A stretch of DNA of 64,000 bases from positions 1-64,000 of the forward strand of contig NZ_JAOWLB010000002.1 in NCBI RefSeq assembly GCF_025751555.1, read 5' to 3'. Shown here in pieces: positions 55,554 to 63,034 of the stretch (its first letter is position 1; the number at the start of each line of letters is the position of its first letter). The notes under the pieces are model-generated. The model made no database searches. It was not told the DNA's origin and saw only the letters and a program-made list of their open reading frames with translations. The position numbers and the translations under genes were made by a program. This DNA is from Ruegeria aquimaris (lineage in GTDB: Bacteria > Pseudomonadota > Alphaproteobacteria > Rhodobacterales > Rhodobacteraceae).

Positions 55554-56198
55554 CTATTTCGACTTCCAGCTGTCGAGCCAACGCCGGAACCGACCGCGGC
55601 GTTCCTCGATCGCCTCGCCGGCGGCATAGAGACTGTCTTCGACATCCTCGATCACTGGGTCGATGCGCGCCTCGCGGAACCGGCGCCAGCGCACCCAGAT
55701 CGCCCAGAACAGCGCCGCCAACAGGGTAAGGACAATTATGTTGAACCAGGGGATCAGGCGCACGTCGGGCCCCTCCACCGGCTTGATCGCCACCGCGTTG
55801 GGAAAGATCGACAGAAATTCGTTGCGCCAGCCATAATGGGTCACCGCCACCCATTCGGGTTTGTCCTTGGACGAGATCGCGTCATTCGCCTCGGTATAGA
55901 GATTGGCGGTGTCGAACTTGAAGTAGGGCGGCCAGCTCCAGCTGGTATCCTCGTTGCGATAGACACGCGGGCGGCCTTCGGGCGTCACCCCCTGAATGAA
56001 CTGCACATCGCGGTTGATGATGTTCACTGACTGGTCGTCGGGCCGCGACCAGAAGATTCGGGTCCAGTCGTTCAGCTCCTGCCGTTCCTCATAGGTATTG
56101 ACGATGCGCACGATGTCGCGCTGCGGCAGGGTATAGTGCAGGAAGGCGGCGACGCTGAGCCAGAACAGCCCGATGATCACCCATTTGACATAGCGCAT
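55554..56198 (-). CDS. DUF1523 family membrane-anchored protein
   Basis: This 214-aa protein has an N-terminal membrane helix (residues about 6-25), a soluble, presumably periplasmic middle and a second helix (..FNIIVLTLLAALFWAIWV..) followed by a basic cytoplasmic tail. The middle contains ..LPQRDIVRIVNTYEERQE.. and ..DTANLYTEANDAISSKDKPEWVAVTHYGWRNEFLSIFPNAV.., the DUF1523 signature. Function is unknown; the family is found in Rhodobacterales. It is the last gene of the cluster with an AAA+ ATPase and is 10 bases after the small membrane gene. Confidence 0.85.
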   Translation of the reverse strand: MRYVKWVIIGLFWLSVAAFLHYTLPQRDIVRIVNTYEERQELNDWTRIFWSRPDDQSVNIINRDVQFIQGVTPEGRPRVYRNEDTSWSWPPYFKFDTANLYTEANDAISSKDKPEWVAVTHYGWRNEFLSIFPNAVAIKPVEGPDVRLIPWFNIIVLTLLAALFWAIWVRWRRFREARIDPVIEDVEDSLYAAGEAIEERRGRFRRWLDSWKSK

Positions 56199-56208
56199 GG
56201 CCAGGTCC

Positions 56209-56475
56209 TCACTTGAAATTCACGATATAGATCAGCACTGCGATCAATACCCAGGGGACAAAGTACACCCCCAGGATCAGCTTGCGCCGGAACGATCCGT
56301 CATAGGCCCTGAGACCGCGTTCGACAAAGGCCTCCTTGTCGCCCGTCTTGCCCTTTTCCTCCCACCAGCGCTTCAGCTTGCCGCGCCGCACCGCCCGGGA
56401 ATAGAGCGACAGGCCGACATAGGCCACCGTCTGCACCACCAGCAGGACAACGACAAGTCTGAGAAGTCCGATCAC
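56209..56475 (-). CDS. small two-pass membrane protein of the AAA+ cluster
   Basis: This 88-aa protein has two hydrophobic helices (residues about 2-22 and 66-85) around a basic loop ..RRGKLKRWWEEKGKTGDKEAFVERGLRAYDGSFRRKL... It starts at GTG 56475, with GGAGG about nine bases upstream. The stop of DUF6638 is at 56477, one base away, so translation is coupled. No domain is recognised. Its position between DUF6638 and DUF1523 suggests it is part of the same complex. Confidence 0.78.
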   Translation of the reverse strand: MIGLLRLVVVLLVVQTVAYVGLSLYSRAVRRGKLKRWWEEKGKTGDKEAFVERGLRAYDGSFRRKLILGVYFVPWVLIAVLIYIVNFK

Positions 56476-56476
56476 C

Positions 56477-57826
56477 CTATCGCCTCCGTATTGCGCCCCA
56501 GGGGCCGACCCGTTCGATCAGGCGTTCATCCGCCTGCGCGGGGCTTTGTGCTCCGCTCATGTCCGGCTCGTGCCCGAACAATGCCGCCCGCGCGCCTGCC
56601 TTGTCCACCTGATACTCGCGCGCGAGGAAATCGGCAACAAAGGCCCGTTTGGCCTCGGGCCAGGTCGCATAGAGGCGATAGAACAGCTCCTTGTGACAGA
56701 TGAAGAGCTGGCGCGCATCCAGCGGCGCCAGTTCCGCCAGCAACATGTTGACCAGGTCGCGGTCGGGCGTATCGGCGGCCCGCAGGCCATAGAAATAGGC
56801 CGGATGATCCGCCGAAATACGCGGCCAGTCGCCGCCGTTCTCGGCCCAGCGCGCCAGTTGCGCCAGCCCGTGATACTCATCCGGCAGCCGGTCGGCATGC
56901 ATCCGCGCCAGCCTCCGCATATCGCCCCGGTCCAGCCCCGCCGGGTTCAGCCCGGCCCCCGCGGCGGTGTCGATGACGATGAAATCCATCTTCTGCCGCA
57001 GCACCGCCGCAGCATCCATGCCGCGCGCCCGCACGATGGGTTCGGCCAGCTTGTTGAAATCGAGGAACTTGGCAATCCGGTTGCGTTCGCCGAGGTCCAG
57101 CACGTATTTCACCGGCATCTCTTCGCGGGGCTTTTCGCCCACGCAGATCATCGCCGGGTGTTCCACATCGGGGAACAGGTAGAGCCCGCCGAAATGCGCC
57201 GTCCAGAAATTGCGCTGCTCATGCGCCTTGTGGCTCAGATGCACGGGGTTGCGGCTGATATCGCCGGTCTGTTTCGAAATCCCGATCATCTCGGCGATCA
57301 GCACATCGTCGAACCAGGCGTCGTTTTCGGTCTTGAACCGTTCGATCATGGCGGCCAGCTTGTCCGCGTTCTTCAGCGTGCCGCCGACGGTGTCGGCCTC
57401 GATCTCGATCTTGCGCAGGGTGAAAAGATCGGCCGGCGAGCGCAGCTTGAAGACCGAGTTCACCAGCTCTCCCGCCACCGCATCGGTGGCGGTAAGGGCA
57501 AACAGCTGCGCCTCGTTCGCCTCGATGAACTCGCGCAGGATCGGGCGCGAGGTCGAGAATTTCACGTTCAACAGCGGCGCGCGCTTCTGCTCGGGCGTCA
57601 GCAGGATGAACTGCCGGTTGACCCCGTTGGGGTTGAGGTAGAGCGGATCACCCAGCTCGTCCCCGATCTCGGGCGAATAGCCCGAGATGTCGATGTGGAA
57701 ATCGGTAAGCGCCGTGGTCTTGCCCGCCAGATGCTGGAGCGCGCGATTATACCGCTCCACCAGCGCCGCGCTGGAGATATGGACAAGATTGCCGAACATC
57801 AGGCCGGATTGGATGAGGCGGATCAT
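56477..57826 (-). CDS. DUF6638 family protein
   Basis: This 449-aa soluble protein contains ..LVHISSAALVERYNRALQHLAGK.. at its start, ..DFHIDISGYSPEIGDELGDPLYLNP.., ..PAMICVGEKPREEMPVKYVLDLGERN.. and ..IDTAAGAGLNPAGLDRGDMRRLAR... No catalytic motif is evident. The family is alphaproteobacterial with unknown function. The ATG overlaps the stop of the low-GC AbiC-like gene (ATGA). In strains without that gene I would expect it to follow the AAA+ ATPase directly. Confidence 0.78.
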   Translation of the reverse strand: MIRLIQSGLMFGNLVHISSAALVERYNRALQHLAGKTTALTDFHIDISGYSPEIGDELGDPLYLNPNGVNRQFILLTPEQKRAPLLNVKFSTSRPILREFIEANEAQLFALTATDAVAGELVNSVFKLRSPADLFTLRKIEIEADTVGGTLKNADKLAAMIERFKTENDAWFDDVLIAEMIGISKQTGDISRNPVHLSHKAHEQRNFWTAHFGGLYLFPDVEHPAMICVGEKPREEMPVKYVLDLGERNRIAKFLDFNKLAEPIVRARGMDAAAVLRQKMDFIVIDTAAGAGLNPAGLDRGDMRRLARMHADRLPDEYHGLAQLARWAENGGDWPRISADHPAYFYGLRAADTPDRDLVNMLLAELAPLDARQLFICHKELFYRLYATWPEAKRAFVADFLAREYQVDKAGARAALFGHEPDMSGAQSPAQADERLIERVGPWGAIRRR

Positions 57827-58641
57827 ATTGCCTCTCTTTCCGAAGTGTCTTCTCTGCCGAACGCAGTTGCTGGAACAAGCTTCTCGTGCTTTGGGTCAAG
57901 CAATTTTTCCACAGGCAAGTTGTCAAACAGCTCGAACTCGACAACATACTTTATCATCTTCTCCCCTTTTGGATGGAGGCAGTTATAAAACAACAATAGA
58001 AGCTCGTGATCCGAAAGCATCGCTCTCAGAAGTTTTCCGTGCCGTTCCTGCGATTGAGGATTCTCGGAGACAGCGCGCAATGAATTATACAGAAACCTAA
58101 AATAGTGCCCGAACTCGTGACTATACTTCGTCCAAAATTCTTCGTTTATTCTCTCCAGGTTACTTTGGCTACTCCGCTTTTCGTATAGCTTTACCAAACG
58201 CTCATAATAAATCTTAATACAATCTCGACCTTTTGCGGTGACTTGCCCATTTGCGTTTATGATATCAATAGATTCGACGATACTATTCAGTGTTGCTAAC
58301 AGCTCAAAGAAAGATACTTCAAAACGCTGCGCCAACATGTTTTCGTTAGTCTTTGCGAACTCATCCTTTTGCTCGGATAAAACCCTTCGTTGCTCAGACA
58401 ATTCCTGACTCTGCAACCAAACAGTCACAATAATCCAAACAAAAGCGAGCGCTCCAGCGAAACCTGCGAGCGTATCTCCAACCTCGTTTGGTCGTGCAGC
58501 CAAAAAGATTGAGAACTTTGTTTGGCAGACGCCTTCGCTACTGCAATCAACTTGTGAACCGATCCAAAGCGCAAATAGAAACAAGGTTAGAGTTGCAAGA
58601 ACACCCCAGAACACCGGATGCAAGCACAGGCGCTTACCCAT
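57823..58641 (-). CDS. AbiC-like putative phage abortive infection protein, embedded in the AAA+ operon
   Basis: This 272-aa membrane protein resembles the putative AbiC abortive-infection family (Pfam putAbiC). It has two N-terminal helices (residues about 9-30 and 55-80), then a coiled coil (..ELSEQRRVLSEQKDEFAKTNENMLAQ..). The core has ..FFELLATLNSIVESI.., ..HYFRFLYNSLRAV.., and ..LRAMLSDHELLLLFYNCLHPKGEKM.. near the C-terminus, all typical. Two sampled 60-base stretches are 37% and 35% GC, far below the neighbours. Its ATG overlaps the end of the ATPase gene by 8 bases, and its stop overlaps the DUF6638 start. It is probably a horizontally acquired anti-phage gene expressed from the host operon. 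Confidence 0.83.
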   Translation of the reverse strand: MGKRLCLHPVFWGVLATLTLFLFALWIGSQVDCSSEGVCQTKFSIFLAARPNEVGDTLAGFAGALAFVWIIVTVWLQSQELSEQRRVLSEQKDEFAKTNENMLAQRFEVSFFELLATLNSIVESIDIINANGQVTAKGRDCIKIYYERLVKLYEKRSSQSNLERINEEFWTKYSHEFGHYFRFLYNSLRAVSENPQSQERHGKLLRAMLSDHELLLLFYNCLHPKGEKMIKYVVEFELFDNLPVEKLLDPKHEKLVPATAFGREDTSEREAI

Positions 58642-60574
58642 CCTTCCCCTCCAGATACCGTTTCTTCGCCGCGTCCATCCGGCCCATCTCGCGCACCATG
58701 CCGTCGATCGCCACCTCGTCGGACTTGTCGGCATAGCGGAACTCTGAATCCGCATAGCGGTTAATCTCTTGCACCACCATCTCGACCGTGATGGGCTGGC
58801 GCAGCTCTTCGATCATCGCCAGCTTGGTGTCATAGTCGCGGAACAGGAAAAGGTCGGGATTTTCCATCCATTCATCGGGCAGTTCGAAATCCATCGCGCG
58901 GACCTTGACCGCGTCGGTGATGTTCTTGATCGCGCGACCGGTGAAGCGTTCGTCGGCCTCCTGTATCCCTTTCAGATAGGTCCCCAACTTGGCGATGGTG
59001 TCGAGCGGGCCGACCTGCGCCCCCACCCGTTCCCACACCTGCGCCAGCCCGGCCTCGTGCGGGCGGCCATGGGCGGCGAAACTGGCGGCCACCGCGCGCT
59101 TGATCTCTTGCGCGGCATAGAGGTCATGCTCGCCCAGCGGGATATCGTGACGCTTGCCCAAGAGCAGGGCCAGGATGTCGATGTAATCCTCGCGCGTCTG
59201 CGGCCCGTCGACCAGGAACCGCGCCCCCGCCCGCTGGCGCAGGGCGTCGTCGACATTCTCGGGATAGTTCGAGAACATGCCAAAGGTGCAATTGCCGCGC
59301 ACCACGGTATTGGCGCCGGCAAAGGCCTCCATGAACACCGCCGTCACCTCCTGCTGGCCCGCGCTCGACTGGCGGTCGCCGCGCTTGCCCGCGATCTGGT
59401 CGATATCGTCGATGGTGCCGAACCCGATCACGCCGGGGTCGAGCACGTTCTGGACAAAGGCCTTGGCGTTCTGGCCCGACTTGCCCTGATAGCTGTCGAT
59501 ATTGTCGATGCCAAAGTTCTGATAGCGGAACGGATAGCCCGCGTTGCGGCAGTATTCGTCGATCAACCCCGCCATCATCTGGATCAGCGTTGTCTTGCCG
59601 GTGCCTGGCTTGCCATCGCCCATGAAGGTGAAGATGAAGCCGCCGAGTTCCGCAAACGGGTTCAGGCGGCGCTCGAAATCATAGGCCATCAGCATTTTCG
59701 ACAGCTTCATGGCCTGGTATTTGGCGATATGGTTGCCGACCACCTCGTTCGGTTTCTTGAACGTCATGGTCAGCTTGGTCGAGCGCGCCTTGGCCGCGGG
59801 GGTAAAGCCTCGCAGGGTCAGGTCATCGGCCTCGACATGCCAAGCGGCACCGGTGAAGGGGGCCAGATGTCCGGCGCCTTGTGCGCGCGCGGCGGCCTTG
59901 GCCATCAGCTGTTCGGCAAAACCGGCGGTAGCGGCGATCAGCTGCGCGTCGTCGCCCGCGAACTGCTCCAGCTTCTGGTCCAGATCCCATAGCGCGCCGT
60001 GGATCGCCAGTTGCGCGTTGTCGGTCAGAAACTCCTCGACCTCGCCCACCTCGACCGAGGTTGCGCCCAGATGCGGCGACAACAGATAGGCCAGCGAGTT
60101 TCCGAACACATGGGAGACTACCAGCGCCTCGGCGGTCAGCAATTCGGTGAACTCGCCCTTGCGCGCCGCAGGCAGGTCGCCCGCCAGATTGGCGCGTTTC
60201 AGATCGCCCAGCGGCGTGCGCTCGCCATAGCCCTCTCCCATGGCCAATGCGATCGCCAGCGCCCGGCGGATCGCCTGCGCCACGGTGGCCTGTAGCGGCG
60301 AGACCAGCGTGTCGCCGTCATCCGCCGCCTCGATCCGCTCGCGCAGATGCACCCCGTCGGGCCGGGCGGTGCGCCGCGTCACCAGACCGGGCGTGGTCGA
60401 ACGGAACCGCCGCGCTGCAGGGATGCCGGGCGAGCGCTCCTCCGCCCTGGCGGGCGTCCTCGCCTGCGCCACGCGCGGCGCATGATCGAACCCGTCCAGC
60501 AGCGCGGTGGCCGCCGGGTAATGCGCGCGGATCGCCTCTTCGCGCAGTTCCATCTGGTCGGATGTCAGGCTCAT
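58634..60574 (-). CDS. AAA+ family ATPase
   Basis: This 646-aa ATPase has an N-terminal region of about 300 residues without a recognised domain. A AAA+ module follows, with Walker A in GDGKPGTGKTTLIQM, Walker B in GFGTIDDIDQIAG, a sensor-1-type Asn in MFSNYPENVDDALRQRAG and arginine-finger candidates just after. A helical C-terminal region includes ..DERFTGRAIKNITDAVKVRA... The architecture resembles AAA+ disassembly or activation ATPases, but I cannot name a subfamily. It is preceded by copy 4 of the intergenic repeat and followed at once by the AbiC-like gene. Confidence 0.85.
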   Translation of the reverse strand: MSLTSDQMELREEAIRAHYPAATALLDGFDHAPRVAQARTPARAEERSPGIPAARRFRSTTPGLVTRRTARPDGVHLRERIEAADDGDTLVSPLQATVAQAIRRALAIALAMGEGYGERTPLGDLKRANLAGDLPAARKGEFTELLTAEALVVSHVFGNSLAYLLSPHLGATSVEVGEVEEFLTDNAQLAIHGALWDLDQKLEQFAGDDAQLIAATAGFAEQLMAKAAARAQGAGHLAPFTGAAWHVEADDLTLRGFTPAAKARSTKLTMTFKKPNEVVGNHIAKYQAMKLSKMLMAYDFERRLNPFAELGGFIFTFMGDGKPGTGKTTLIQMMAGLIDEYCRNAGYPFRYQNFGIDNIDSYQGKSGQNAKAFVQNVLDPGVIGFGTIDDIDQIAGKRGDRQSSAGQQEVTAVFMEAFAGANTVVRGNCTFGMFSNYPENVDDALRQRAGARFLVDGPQTREDYIDILALLLGKRHDIPLGEHDLYAAQEIKRAVAASFAAHGRPHEAGLAQVWERVGAQVGPLDTIAKLGTYLKGIQEADERFTGRAIKNITDAVKVRAMDFELPDEWMENPDLFLFRDYDTKLAMIEELRQPITVEMVVQEINRYADSEFRYADKSDEVAIDGMVREMGRMDAAKKRYLEGKDG

Positions 60575-60641: not shown

Positions 60642-61760
60642 TCAATATCGCAGAACCTGCCCACCCTCGCTCACCACGAATTTACGCACATCGGCAAAAC
60701 CCGGCGGATTGCGTTCGGCCAGAACCTGGAACGGTCGCTGCGGCAGGATGATCGACCGGCTGGTGCGCGTGGCCCCGGTCTCGGCCCCCTGCCCGCCAAA
60801 CGGGTCGAGGGCAAAGACCTCGCGCTCGACCGTGCCGAACCAGCCCGCGCGTTCCTCACGTACGTCCTCGCTTTCCAGCTCCTCGCTGGTCCAGGCGAGC
60901 GCCCAGTCCTGCCCGGCAGGGGCCTGCGCGTCCTCCAGCACCGCACGCAGCGGGCCGGTTTGTTCGGTATAGGCCGAGGAATACATCGGCCCCACGTGGA
61001 TGCGGCGCAGATGTTTCGGGTGCAGATCGTCGAAATCCTCGTCAAACCCCTTGGCGATGGTCAACAGCTTCAACCCGGCCAGCGACTGCGCCATCAGATG
61101 CGCCTGTACCTCGGGCCAGCGGCGGCTGTCCTTGGGCAGGGCCTGTTTGCCGGTATCCTCCAGCCGCATCAGATAGATCACCGGCAGGTTGATCTGGCTG
61201 TCATAGACGGCCCAATGCAGCAGGAACCGCCGCCGCTCGCCCTCGGTCGAAATCCAGTGGCATTCGGGGTCGTTGCGCACCCAGAACAGCTGCCCCCGTG
61301 CCAGTTCCTCGTAATAGAGCCGCTGCGACAGGGCGAATTGCAGCTTGGTCGGGATCTCGCGACTGCCCAGGATGGTCTGGACCATCTCGTCCTTCAGCGC
61401 CGCCTCTGACGGCATGTTGGCCAGATGGCTGGCCGCCTGCTGGGCGTCGTTGGCCATGGTCATCAGTTCGGCCGCCACCGGAAAGCCGCTATCGCGCTTG
61501 TCCATGTTGAGCGAGCCAAAGAACCGCCCCGTGTCGCGCCCGACCAGCAGGTATTTCATGCTGAGCGCGCGAAAGGTGAACAGCAACCCCGAGATATAGC
61601 GCGAGACGATGCGCACCTCATCGCGGCTGATCACGCCTTCGGCCTCCATGTTGGCGGCCACCCGGAGCAGATGGGTGGCAATCGTCTCGAACTTGCGGAA
61701 GTACCGGCGCGAGGCGAATGTATCGGTCAGGCCGACGTGATCGTGGGCGGGATCGGCCAA
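60642..61760 (-). CDS. conserved protein of unknown function in the AAA+ cluster
   Basis: This 372-aa soluble protein begins with helices (..SRRYFRKFETIATHLLRVAANMEAEGVISRDEV..). The middle has ..LQFALSQRLYYEELARGQLFWVRNDPECHW.. and ..YDSQINLPVIYLMRLEDTG... I recognise no family. Translation most likely starts at TTG 61760, four bases after the preceding stop and just after GGGGG; a later ATG would remove conserved-looking sequence. It lies between the coiled-coil protein and the ATPase, with the intergenic repeat after it. Confidence 0.72.
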   Translation of the reverse strand: MADPAHDHVGLTDTFASRRYFRKFETIATHLLRVAANMEAEGVISRDEVRIVSRYISGLLFTFRALSMKYLLVGRDTGRFFGSLNMDKRDSGFPVAAELMTMANDAQQAASHLANMPSEAALKDEMVQTILGSREIPTKLQFALSQRLYYEELARGQLFWVRNDPECHWISTEGERRRFLLHWAVYDSQINLPVIYLMRLEDTGKQALPKDSRRWPEVQAHLMAQSLAGLKLLTIAKGFDEDFDDLHPKHLRRIHVGPMYSSAYTEQTGPLRAVLEDAQAPAGQDWALAWTSEELESEDVREERAGWFGTVEREVFALDPFGGQGAETGATRTSRSIILPQRPFQVLAERNPPGFADVRKFVVSEGGQVLRY

Positions 61761-61763
61761 GGA

Positions 61764-62843
61764 TCAGCCCCCGTAGAGGTTCTTGTCGTGCTTCTCGACG
61801 ATGGCGGCGAAGCGGCGGGCAAAGCGCTCATCGGCCTTGGCCTTCTTCTCCAGCACGTCGCGGGCAAAGACCATGTGATCCTCGTGCGCCTCAAGCATGT
61901 CGGCCATCTTCTGGTTGGTCGCGGTGCCGATGGCGGCCATGGCGGTCTGCGCCTCCTGGTCGGTCTGCACGCCGATCTCGTTGATGCGGTGGGCGACATC
62001 CTGCTGCTGCGCGGTCTTCAGCGATTTGGTCAGCGCGTCATAGAGCACCACACGCTGCTGCGTGTCCGTTTGCAGCTTGTTGATCAGCACCATCTGGGTC
62101 GCGGCCTGGTTTTGCAGGCTGTCGACCCAGGTCTTGCCCTTTTCGATATAGCGTTCCAGCGTCTGGCTCTTGGCCAGTTTCACCTGCTCGTCGCGTACCT
62201 TGGCGTTATAGGCCTTGTTCAGCTCGGCCAGTTCGGTTTCCAGCTTGGTGCGCGCGGCGGCGTCCTGTTCGACGCTGATCTTGTTTTCCAGCGCGATGAT
62301 CTGCGGATCCATGGAGAGGATCTCGGCCCGCACAGCTTCCAGTTCCTGCACGGTGAATTCGCGGTCGTCCAGCGTGCCGGTCAGGTTGGTTTCGACCTTC
62401 TCTCGCTGCTGTTCCAGAACCGCCAACTGCCCTTCGAGCAGCTTAACGATCACGTCCGATTTGGCGATCAGGTCCTGCAACTTGTCGTCGATATTGGCGG
62501 TGCGCATCCGCTCCTGCCGCATCGATTCCGATTTGCCGCTGGAGAAGATGCCGACAAAGCTCTCCCACCCGGTTTTCGAGCGCATCTCGTCGAAATCCTT
62601 GGAAAAGGCCGAGGTCACATCGTCCAGCCCCATGATCAGCTCGGCAATATTGGCATTCATCACCTCGGTATGGGCATGCACGTCTTCCAGCGTGGCGTTC
62701 TCGATGTCGATATCGGCCTCGCCGGTTTCGATCTTGGCCCGCGCCGCCTCGATCCGGCTGGTCACGCCCTCGATCTGGGCCTGGCTCTCGCGCACCTTGC
62801 GCTGGGTTTCCAGGATCATTGCCTCGAACGCTGTATCAGACAT
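61764..62843 (-). CDS. long coiled-coil protein, first gene of the AAA+ cluster (TelA-like in general form)
   Basis: This 359-aa protein is almost entirely helical: residues about 8-60 and 110-260 form heptad-like coiled coils rich in E, K, Q and L. A C-terminal segment follows with ..VLINKLQTDTQQRVVLYDALTKSLKTAQQQDVAHRINEIGVQTD... The general layout is like toxic-anion-resistance (TelA) proteins, or membrane-remodelling coiled-coil proteins, but the similarity is too weak to assign. The ATG at 62843 has AAAAGGATAAAG upstream. It is the promoter-proximal gene of the leftward cluster and likely a substrate or scaffold for the ATPase. Confidence 0.75.
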   Translation of the reverse strand: MSDTAFEAMILETQRKVRESQAQIEGVTSRIEAARAKIETGEADIDIENATLEDVHAHTEVMNANIAELIMGLDDVTSAFSKDFDEMRSKTGWESFVGIFSSGKSESMRQERMRTANIDDKLQDLIAKSDVIVKLLEGQLAVLEQQREKVETNLTGTLDDREFTVQELEAVRAEILSMDPQIIALENKISVEQDAAARTKLETELAELNKAYNAKVRDEQVKLAKSQTLERYIEKGKTWVDSLQNQAATQMVLINKLQTDTQQRVVLYDALTKSLKTAQQQDVAHRINEIGVQTDQEAQTAMAAIGTATNQKMADMLEAHEDHMVFARDVLEKKAKADERFARRFAAIVEKHDKNLYGG

Positions 62844-63034
62844 GGCTTTATCCTTTTGGGTCAAATGCATGCCCTAGATATGGCATGTAACAAGGATTTA
62901 CATCCCCCTAGGGCGCAGGGATCATAAAAACTGTGGCAAACTCAGGCGCAAAAGGAAAGGCGGTTGAATCGACCTTGCAGATCGCCGCGCCTCTCGCGAT
63001 GCTGCGCCCCGAACCATTCAGAGAGAGGCGGGCG

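Follow-up and report, generated by a model that had tools for sequence, protein, structure and literature searches.

The window analysed here, a stretch of 64,000 nucleotides from Ruegeria aquimaris, carries on its minus strand an operon in which a gene of foreign composition sits between two conserved genes. In the direction of transcription the operon runs from a conserved coiled-coil protein of 368 aa (the coil protein, 61764..62870; its alignment, A5, includes Sinorhizobium and Vibrio) through a gene of 372 aa without a Pfam family or PDB fold match (gene 2, 60642..61760) to an AAA ATPase of 646 aa (58634..60574; PF00004, E 3.6e-11). The ATPase is the left and a DUF6638 protein of 449 aa (56477..57826; PF20343, E 1.6e-231) the right anchor gene of what we call the slot, whose contents we call cargo, and beyond DUF6638 an 88-aa ORF (56209..56475) and a DUF1523 gene (55554..56198; PF07509, E 2.2e-73) follow at junctions that the survey described below found to be fixed. 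Gene 2 is strongly conserved and gave a confident structure model (pTM 0.85) for which Foldseek returned nothing in the PDB at E ≤ 0.001; it is an orphan family. Profile searches of PDB sequences with gene 2, DUF6638 and the coil protein likewise gave nothing convincing, and there are weak matches of the ATPase to the PADLOC TRIP13 model (E 7.5e-5) and of the coil protein to EAD9 (E 7.4e-5, under the cut-off). The genes beyond the operon are housekeeping genes and not defence islands. Sinorhizobium, Shinella, Rhizobium and Vibrio have the operon core as well; in the last three the ATPase adjoins DUF6638 with gaps of 10-66 bp and no cargo, and the Sinorhizobium slot is occupied by a DUF559 endonuclease gene. 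An ancestrally empty junction is the simplest reading. In S. meliloti Ak57 (pSymB; L198, 9106-10851) the DUF559 gene is accompanied by an ISRm16 (IS4) transposase, and a second Sinorhizobium (L281) has a related slot ORF without a transposase.

The gene that fills the slot in the window (57823..58641) encodes a putAbiC/AbiP-like, membrane-anchored protein of 272 aa, as judged from its ORF, profile matches and predicted structure. As the earlier note on this DNA had described, it overlaps both neighbours: its ATG (58641-58639) and the ATPase stop (58636-58634) lie within 8 bases common to both genes (ATGGGTAA, 58634..58641), and its TGA (57825-57823) is supplied by the start of DUF6638, whose ATG begins at 57826, in a 4-base ATGA overlap (57823..57826). 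Over its whole length the gene has a GC content of 44.6% (GC3 0.48), while the ATPase has 65.1% and DUF6638 64.0% (GC3 0.84 each); the gene forms the lowest-GC 800-bp stretch of the window, with both of the sliding windows at or below 45.2% (2 of 1,264) located there. The foreign composition that the earlier note had remarked upon therefore stands, although its figure of 35-37% holds for one stretch (a minimum of 36% over the 100 bp at 58200-58299) and not for the gene mean. No mobile-element ORF was seen in the window's slot, in keeping with the earlier view that no such remnants are visible.

With respect to identity, residues 173-246 (57904..58125) match PF16872 with E 1.3e-19 and 71 bits, against a gathering cut-off of 22, over positions 2-79 of the 80 in the profile, and nothing else in the genome matches PF16872. 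The protein is a true putAbiC member, which confirms the AbiC-like assignment first made from the sequence alone. The PADLOC AbiP model PDLC02351, from a library without cut-off, also matches (E 2.1e-9, 35.8 bits, profile positions 26-169 of 223). Hydrophobic segments near aa 10 and 58 predict an N-terminal membrane anchor, and an AlphaFold model (pLDDT 86), built with 14 homologues, shows a helix at 9-29, a short loop bearing two cysteines, a long helix at 51-124 that is predicted to form the second membrane pass and a stalk, and a domain of helices that spans roughly residues 139-235. Foldseek found nothing in the PDB for this model at E ≤ 0.001. The predicted layout, a membrane anchor with a helical cytosolic domain, is AbiP-like, and the protein probably has a role in defence. 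In the papers searched, neither DUF6638 nor putAbiC is named. A relative of the protein (31% identity over 82% of its length) is encoded by the filamentous Vibrio phage vB_VipaK (L200, 2914-3762), and genes of this kind thus also travel in inoviruses.

The earlier note had proposed a comparison across related strains. In four congeneric genomes, one of them Ruegeria marina, the ATPase and DUF6638 are 91-98% and 93-98% identical at the protein level, and the window's gene is absent from all four with clean junctions. Given this absence and the PF16872 match, the gene is neither at this spot in all relatives nor outside putAbiC, the two outcomes against which the earlier note had set its proposal. 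In its place, one slot has a low-GC gene of 197 aa, another a spacer of 124 bp and a third a pair of small membrane ORFs; the fourth carries a gene of 258 aa, a case of domain exchange, in which only the N-terminal half corresponds to the window's gene. The window's protein was not found in genome G002, and R. marina (G001) encodes a protein that matches its N-terminal half (aa 1-122) at about 67%. In an alignment of 14 slot proteins the conserved part is the N-terminal anchor (around N-E-x-G-D-T-L-A-G) and the C-terminal part varies, with the putAbiC half alignable in only 4 of them. In alignment A2, which joins the window's protein with 13 slot proteins, the two-helix membrane anchor (PNEVGDTLAGFAGALAF, usually with the loop cysteine pair) is attached to differing C-terminal domains; these proteins form a modular family of membrane proteins that is concentrated in the slot.

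We surveyed the junction between the ATPase and DUF6638 with one genome per species. Of 395 genomes sampled from the family, 165 have the ATPase, so that the flanks of the slot are widespread and not universal. A set of 120 loci and 80 further named loci yielded 179 unique loci with a measurable slot, mostly from Rhodobacteraceae. Gap lengths ranged from -4 to 5914 bp with a median of 692 bp; 25 loci had gaps below 200 bp and five, all Rhodobacteraceae loci with a cargo-free operon, had gaps no longer than 20 bp. ORFs of at least 80 aa occupied 151 of the 179 slots, and the 202 cargo ORFs fell into 80 clusters, of which 57 were singletons. When species pairs with an ATPase nucleotide identity of 90-95% were compared, slot content was alike in 5 of 314. 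The junction measured at least 300 bp in 91 of 120 loci, and inserts were found at neither of two control junctions in the same operon (DUF6638 to the 88-aa gene and the 88-aa gene to DUF1523, 0/117 each). Cargo GC was below that of the host ATPase in 128 of the 151 filled loci. The junction is thus a hypervariable slot with at least 80 cargo families, some of anti-phage type, and the window's gene is one occupant of a slot whose content turns over almost completely between species. Two other junctions of the operon also receive ORFs. The one between the coil protein and gene 2 is a second, less used slot, with a sense ORF of at least 90 aa in 30 of 119 loci; many of these resemble small membrane proteins, often with ATGA-type overlaps (L076, L085, L123, L131, L176 and others). 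A third place lies between gene 2 and the ATPase, with an ORF of at least 90 aa in 12 of 121 loci (among them L085, L086, L136, L146, L188 and L193), two of these ORFs being of about 525 aa.

Pfam families recognised among the cargo of the main slot include putAbiC (7), DUF559 (4), Mrr (3) and AbiJ_NTD4 (2), as well as Schlafen AlbA_2, HNH and DUF4145, and PADLOC models found AbiP (7), type IV methyl-directed REase/PDC-S02 (3), AbiC (2), PDC-S16 and a 2TM effector. Among 100 control ORFs from beyond the operon, which encode regulators, a HIT protein and the like, none matched an Abi or nuclease model. A recognisable defence domain is present in only about one-eighth of the cargo ORFs; most cargo consists of small membrane proteins without a family, and some slots contain clearly non-defence genes (transketolase, sulfotransferase, RTX-type). 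Cargo proteins range from less than 100 aa to more than 650 aa, tandem cargo occurs, and the largest cluster comprises 37 small proteins, mostly with three TM segments. Among the Pfam families listed for slot ORFs (25 of 35 in one tally) there was no recombinase or integrase family. A GC-rich repeat of about 70-100 bp (GCGGCGAAGCCGCGACGCGCCCGACCCGCC...), which resembles a dispersed REP-type element, is found in many slots, either between cargo and DUF6638 or alone (L075, L076, L080, L081, L083, L108, L116, L122, L129 and others).

The start and stop signals of the cargo are encoded in the flanking genes. Directly before the cargo ATG in the window, within the C-terminal codons of the ATPase, lies a Shine-Dalgarno-like tract (GGAGGGGAAGG, 58642..58652), and the ATPase tail is conserved as CTGGAGGGGAAGGGGTGA, with CGGCGGTATCTGGAGGGGAAGGGGTGA as the consensus of its last 27 nt. 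Within the last seven ATPase codons, 77% of the glycines are encoded by GGG, versus 29% in the gene body (Fisher P 5e-60, for loci that are not independent), and GGAGG is found in 131 of 179 ATPase tails. The ATPase ends in GTGA or ATGA in 125 of 179 loci, 109 of which also have the Shine-Dalgarno-like motif; DUF6638 starts with ATGA in 140 of 179, and the last cargo ORF stops on an ATGA-type overlap with DUF6638 in 101 of the 151 filled slots, where the stop statistic is unbiased and the start statistic partly biased, since the ORF caller favours upstream GTG starts. From the Shine-Dalgarno tract, the GTGA/ATGA end and the ATGA overlaps it follows that ribosome site and start come from the ATPase and the stop from DUF6638. 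Promoter- and terminator-like matches in the window's slot are at chance level, which agrees with the earlier claim that the gene has neither of its own. We suggest that the junction works as a translational socket for interchangeable ORFs: because the flanks provide ribosome site, start and stop, any ORF placed in phase would be co-transcribed and probably translationally coupled, and a promoter of its own would be unneeded.

The flanking genes also bear signs of exchange. For 26 Ruegeria, identity at 4-fold sites, leaving out the 10 codons adjoining the slot, was higher near the slot than far from it in both the ATPase (0.77 versus 0.62) and DUF6638 (0.78 versus 0.55). Leisingera, Shimia and the window's genus gave a difference of the same sign; it was small in three of the four groups, and in two of eight cases, one flank of Leisingera and one of the window's genus, the interval included zero. 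The drop in synonymous divergence reaches about 150 codons into both flanks, and nucleotide constraint could be a partial source of it. Scars of recombination are seen within slots: in L076 a 49-bp ATPase 3′ end lies between two cargoes and is 98% identical to that of another species but 84% to its own, and copies of the DUF6638 5′ end lie inside the slots of L112, L192 and L133. Near-slot distances on the two sides, correlated jointly, gave a mixed result (r 0.53 in Ruegeria, -0.25 in Leisingera), which we do not count as evidence. Because divergence drops on both sides and copies of flank ends occur within slots, the best explanation is that cargo is swapped between related bacteria mainly by homologous recombination in both conserved flanking genes. 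An exchange that runs through homologous flanks would leave no mobile-element scar. The DNA may be carried by natural transformation, transduction or a gene transfer agent, the gene transfer agents of rhodobacteria being plausible candidates.

In our preferred reading, to which we assign a probability of about 0.72, the junction is a socket for interchangeable ORFs that are exchanged mainly by flank recombination, and the one in the window would encode a membrane-anchored abortive-infection protein. The putAbiC/AbiP-like product would most likely work by itself, its two N-terminal membrane helices, stalk and helical cytosolic domain serving to disturb the membrane or phage nucleic-acid metabolism upon infection. 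A possible but unlikely alternative is that the four-gene core (coil protein, gene 2, ATPase and DUF6638) is an immune or stress-sensing machine and the slot gene its exchangeable effector, restrained by the core proteins and released on infection, in which case each species would arm the same sensor with a different effector. The position of the slot is fixed over many genera, many cargoes are small membrane proteins (one matching the PADLOC '2TM' effector), slot proteins combine a common 2-TM anchor with changing C-termini, and the weak TRIP13 and EAD9 matches of the ATPase and coil protein would fit such a machine. Against it, the operon exists free of cargo in Vibrio, Shinella, Rhizobium and five Rhodobacteraceae, some cargo enzymes (Mrr, DUF559) are expected to act alone, gene 2 has no structural match, and the surroundings are of housekeeping type. 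Full-length putAbiC relatives also lie outside the operon within the same family (G265, G116, G227), and these relatives and the cargo-free operons oppose an obligatory link of the kind envisaged in the earlier suggestion that the gene exploits or senses the ATPase system.

The remaining alternatives concern how the slot came to be filled. It is improbable that the cargo is put in place by a site-specific element, such as an integron-like cassette or a transposon directed at the 3′ end of the ATPase gene: the insertions always fall at the same boundary, GC-rich repeats lie in many slots and L076 has its duplicated ATPase end, but no recombinase is found in the window's slot or among the slot-ORF Pfam families listed, the boundary sequence in common is that of the flanking genes and nothing more, and the divergence drop extends some 150 codons to either side. 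A mobile element specific for the ATPase end, which the L076 duplicate had brought to mind, was set aside because neither a recombinase nor a common boundary sequence was seen and the divergence drop spans both flanks. It is still less probable that the slot ORFs are one fast-evolving orthologous gene; the largest cluster could be such a resident, but the occupants belong to unrelated Pfam families, differ widely in length, sometimes stand in tandem, and form clusters that phmmer does not link. Least credible is the reading that an AbiC gene entered the operon in one ordinary event of horizontal transfer, for which the clean junctions and low GC of the window's locus would speak; it is refuted by the survey, in which 151 loci are filled at one and the same point, almost always with different content. 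What persists of the earlier picture of a foreign gene inserted into a conserved operon is the seamless placement, and not the single event, since the slot turns over almost completely between species.

Several known systems resemble the slot in part. Anticodon nuclease and rlo genes are nested in type I restriction hsd operons, and these too are defence genes between the genes of a conserved operon; the hsd operon, however, is a known restriction system, and cargo diversity in the slot is far larger. Chromosomal integron cassette arrays hold interchangeable promoterless ORFs at one place, whereas no integrase is among the Pfam families listed for slot ORFs, no attC site was noticed, and expression signals in the slot come from the flanking genes. 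The core defence hotspots cDHS1/2 of P. aeruginosa are multi-gene islands of 1-224 kb between core genes (PMC10250203). Like them, the slot has fixed conserved flanks and variable content with anti-phage genes, without a single mobile element, and recombination through the conserved flanks is proposed for both; it differs in usually holding one ORF, inside an operon and coupled to both neighbours, and in being spread over a family. With the same flanking genes in many genomes and high turnover even between close pairs, the slot is of the core-defence-hotspot kind at single-gene scale within an operon. Abi and nuclease families recur in slots and are matched by none of the 100 control ORFs, but most cargo is without family. 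Recombination at flanking core genes diversifies hotspots and has been proposed for those without mobile elements, and new genes are stated to integrate only rarely within operons (PMC5635113). That model of double homologous recombination in the flanks fits the divergence pattern and flank-end copies seen here, with a local drop in synonymous divergence on both sides, yet the slot lies inside an operon. At the protein level, AbiP of Lactococcus and PdpSau of an S. aureus prophage act in abortive infection with a membrane anchor and a cytosolic domain (PMC10127798), an arrangement predicted for the window's protein as well, which differs in its two predicted N-terminal membrane helices and covers the AbiP profile in part.

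The slot is a compact hotspot delimited by two easily recognised genes. In rhodobacterial genomes that carry the operon, what lies between its AAA ATPase and DUF6638 genes provides a ready list of candidate anti-phage genes, and with 80 clusters in 179 loci most of these candidates belong to undescribed families. The slot also shows how single genes could be swapped inside an operon without mobile elements, the neighbouring genes giving the expression signals, and the swapping and immediate expression of chromosomal defence genes thereby becomes a directly testable question.
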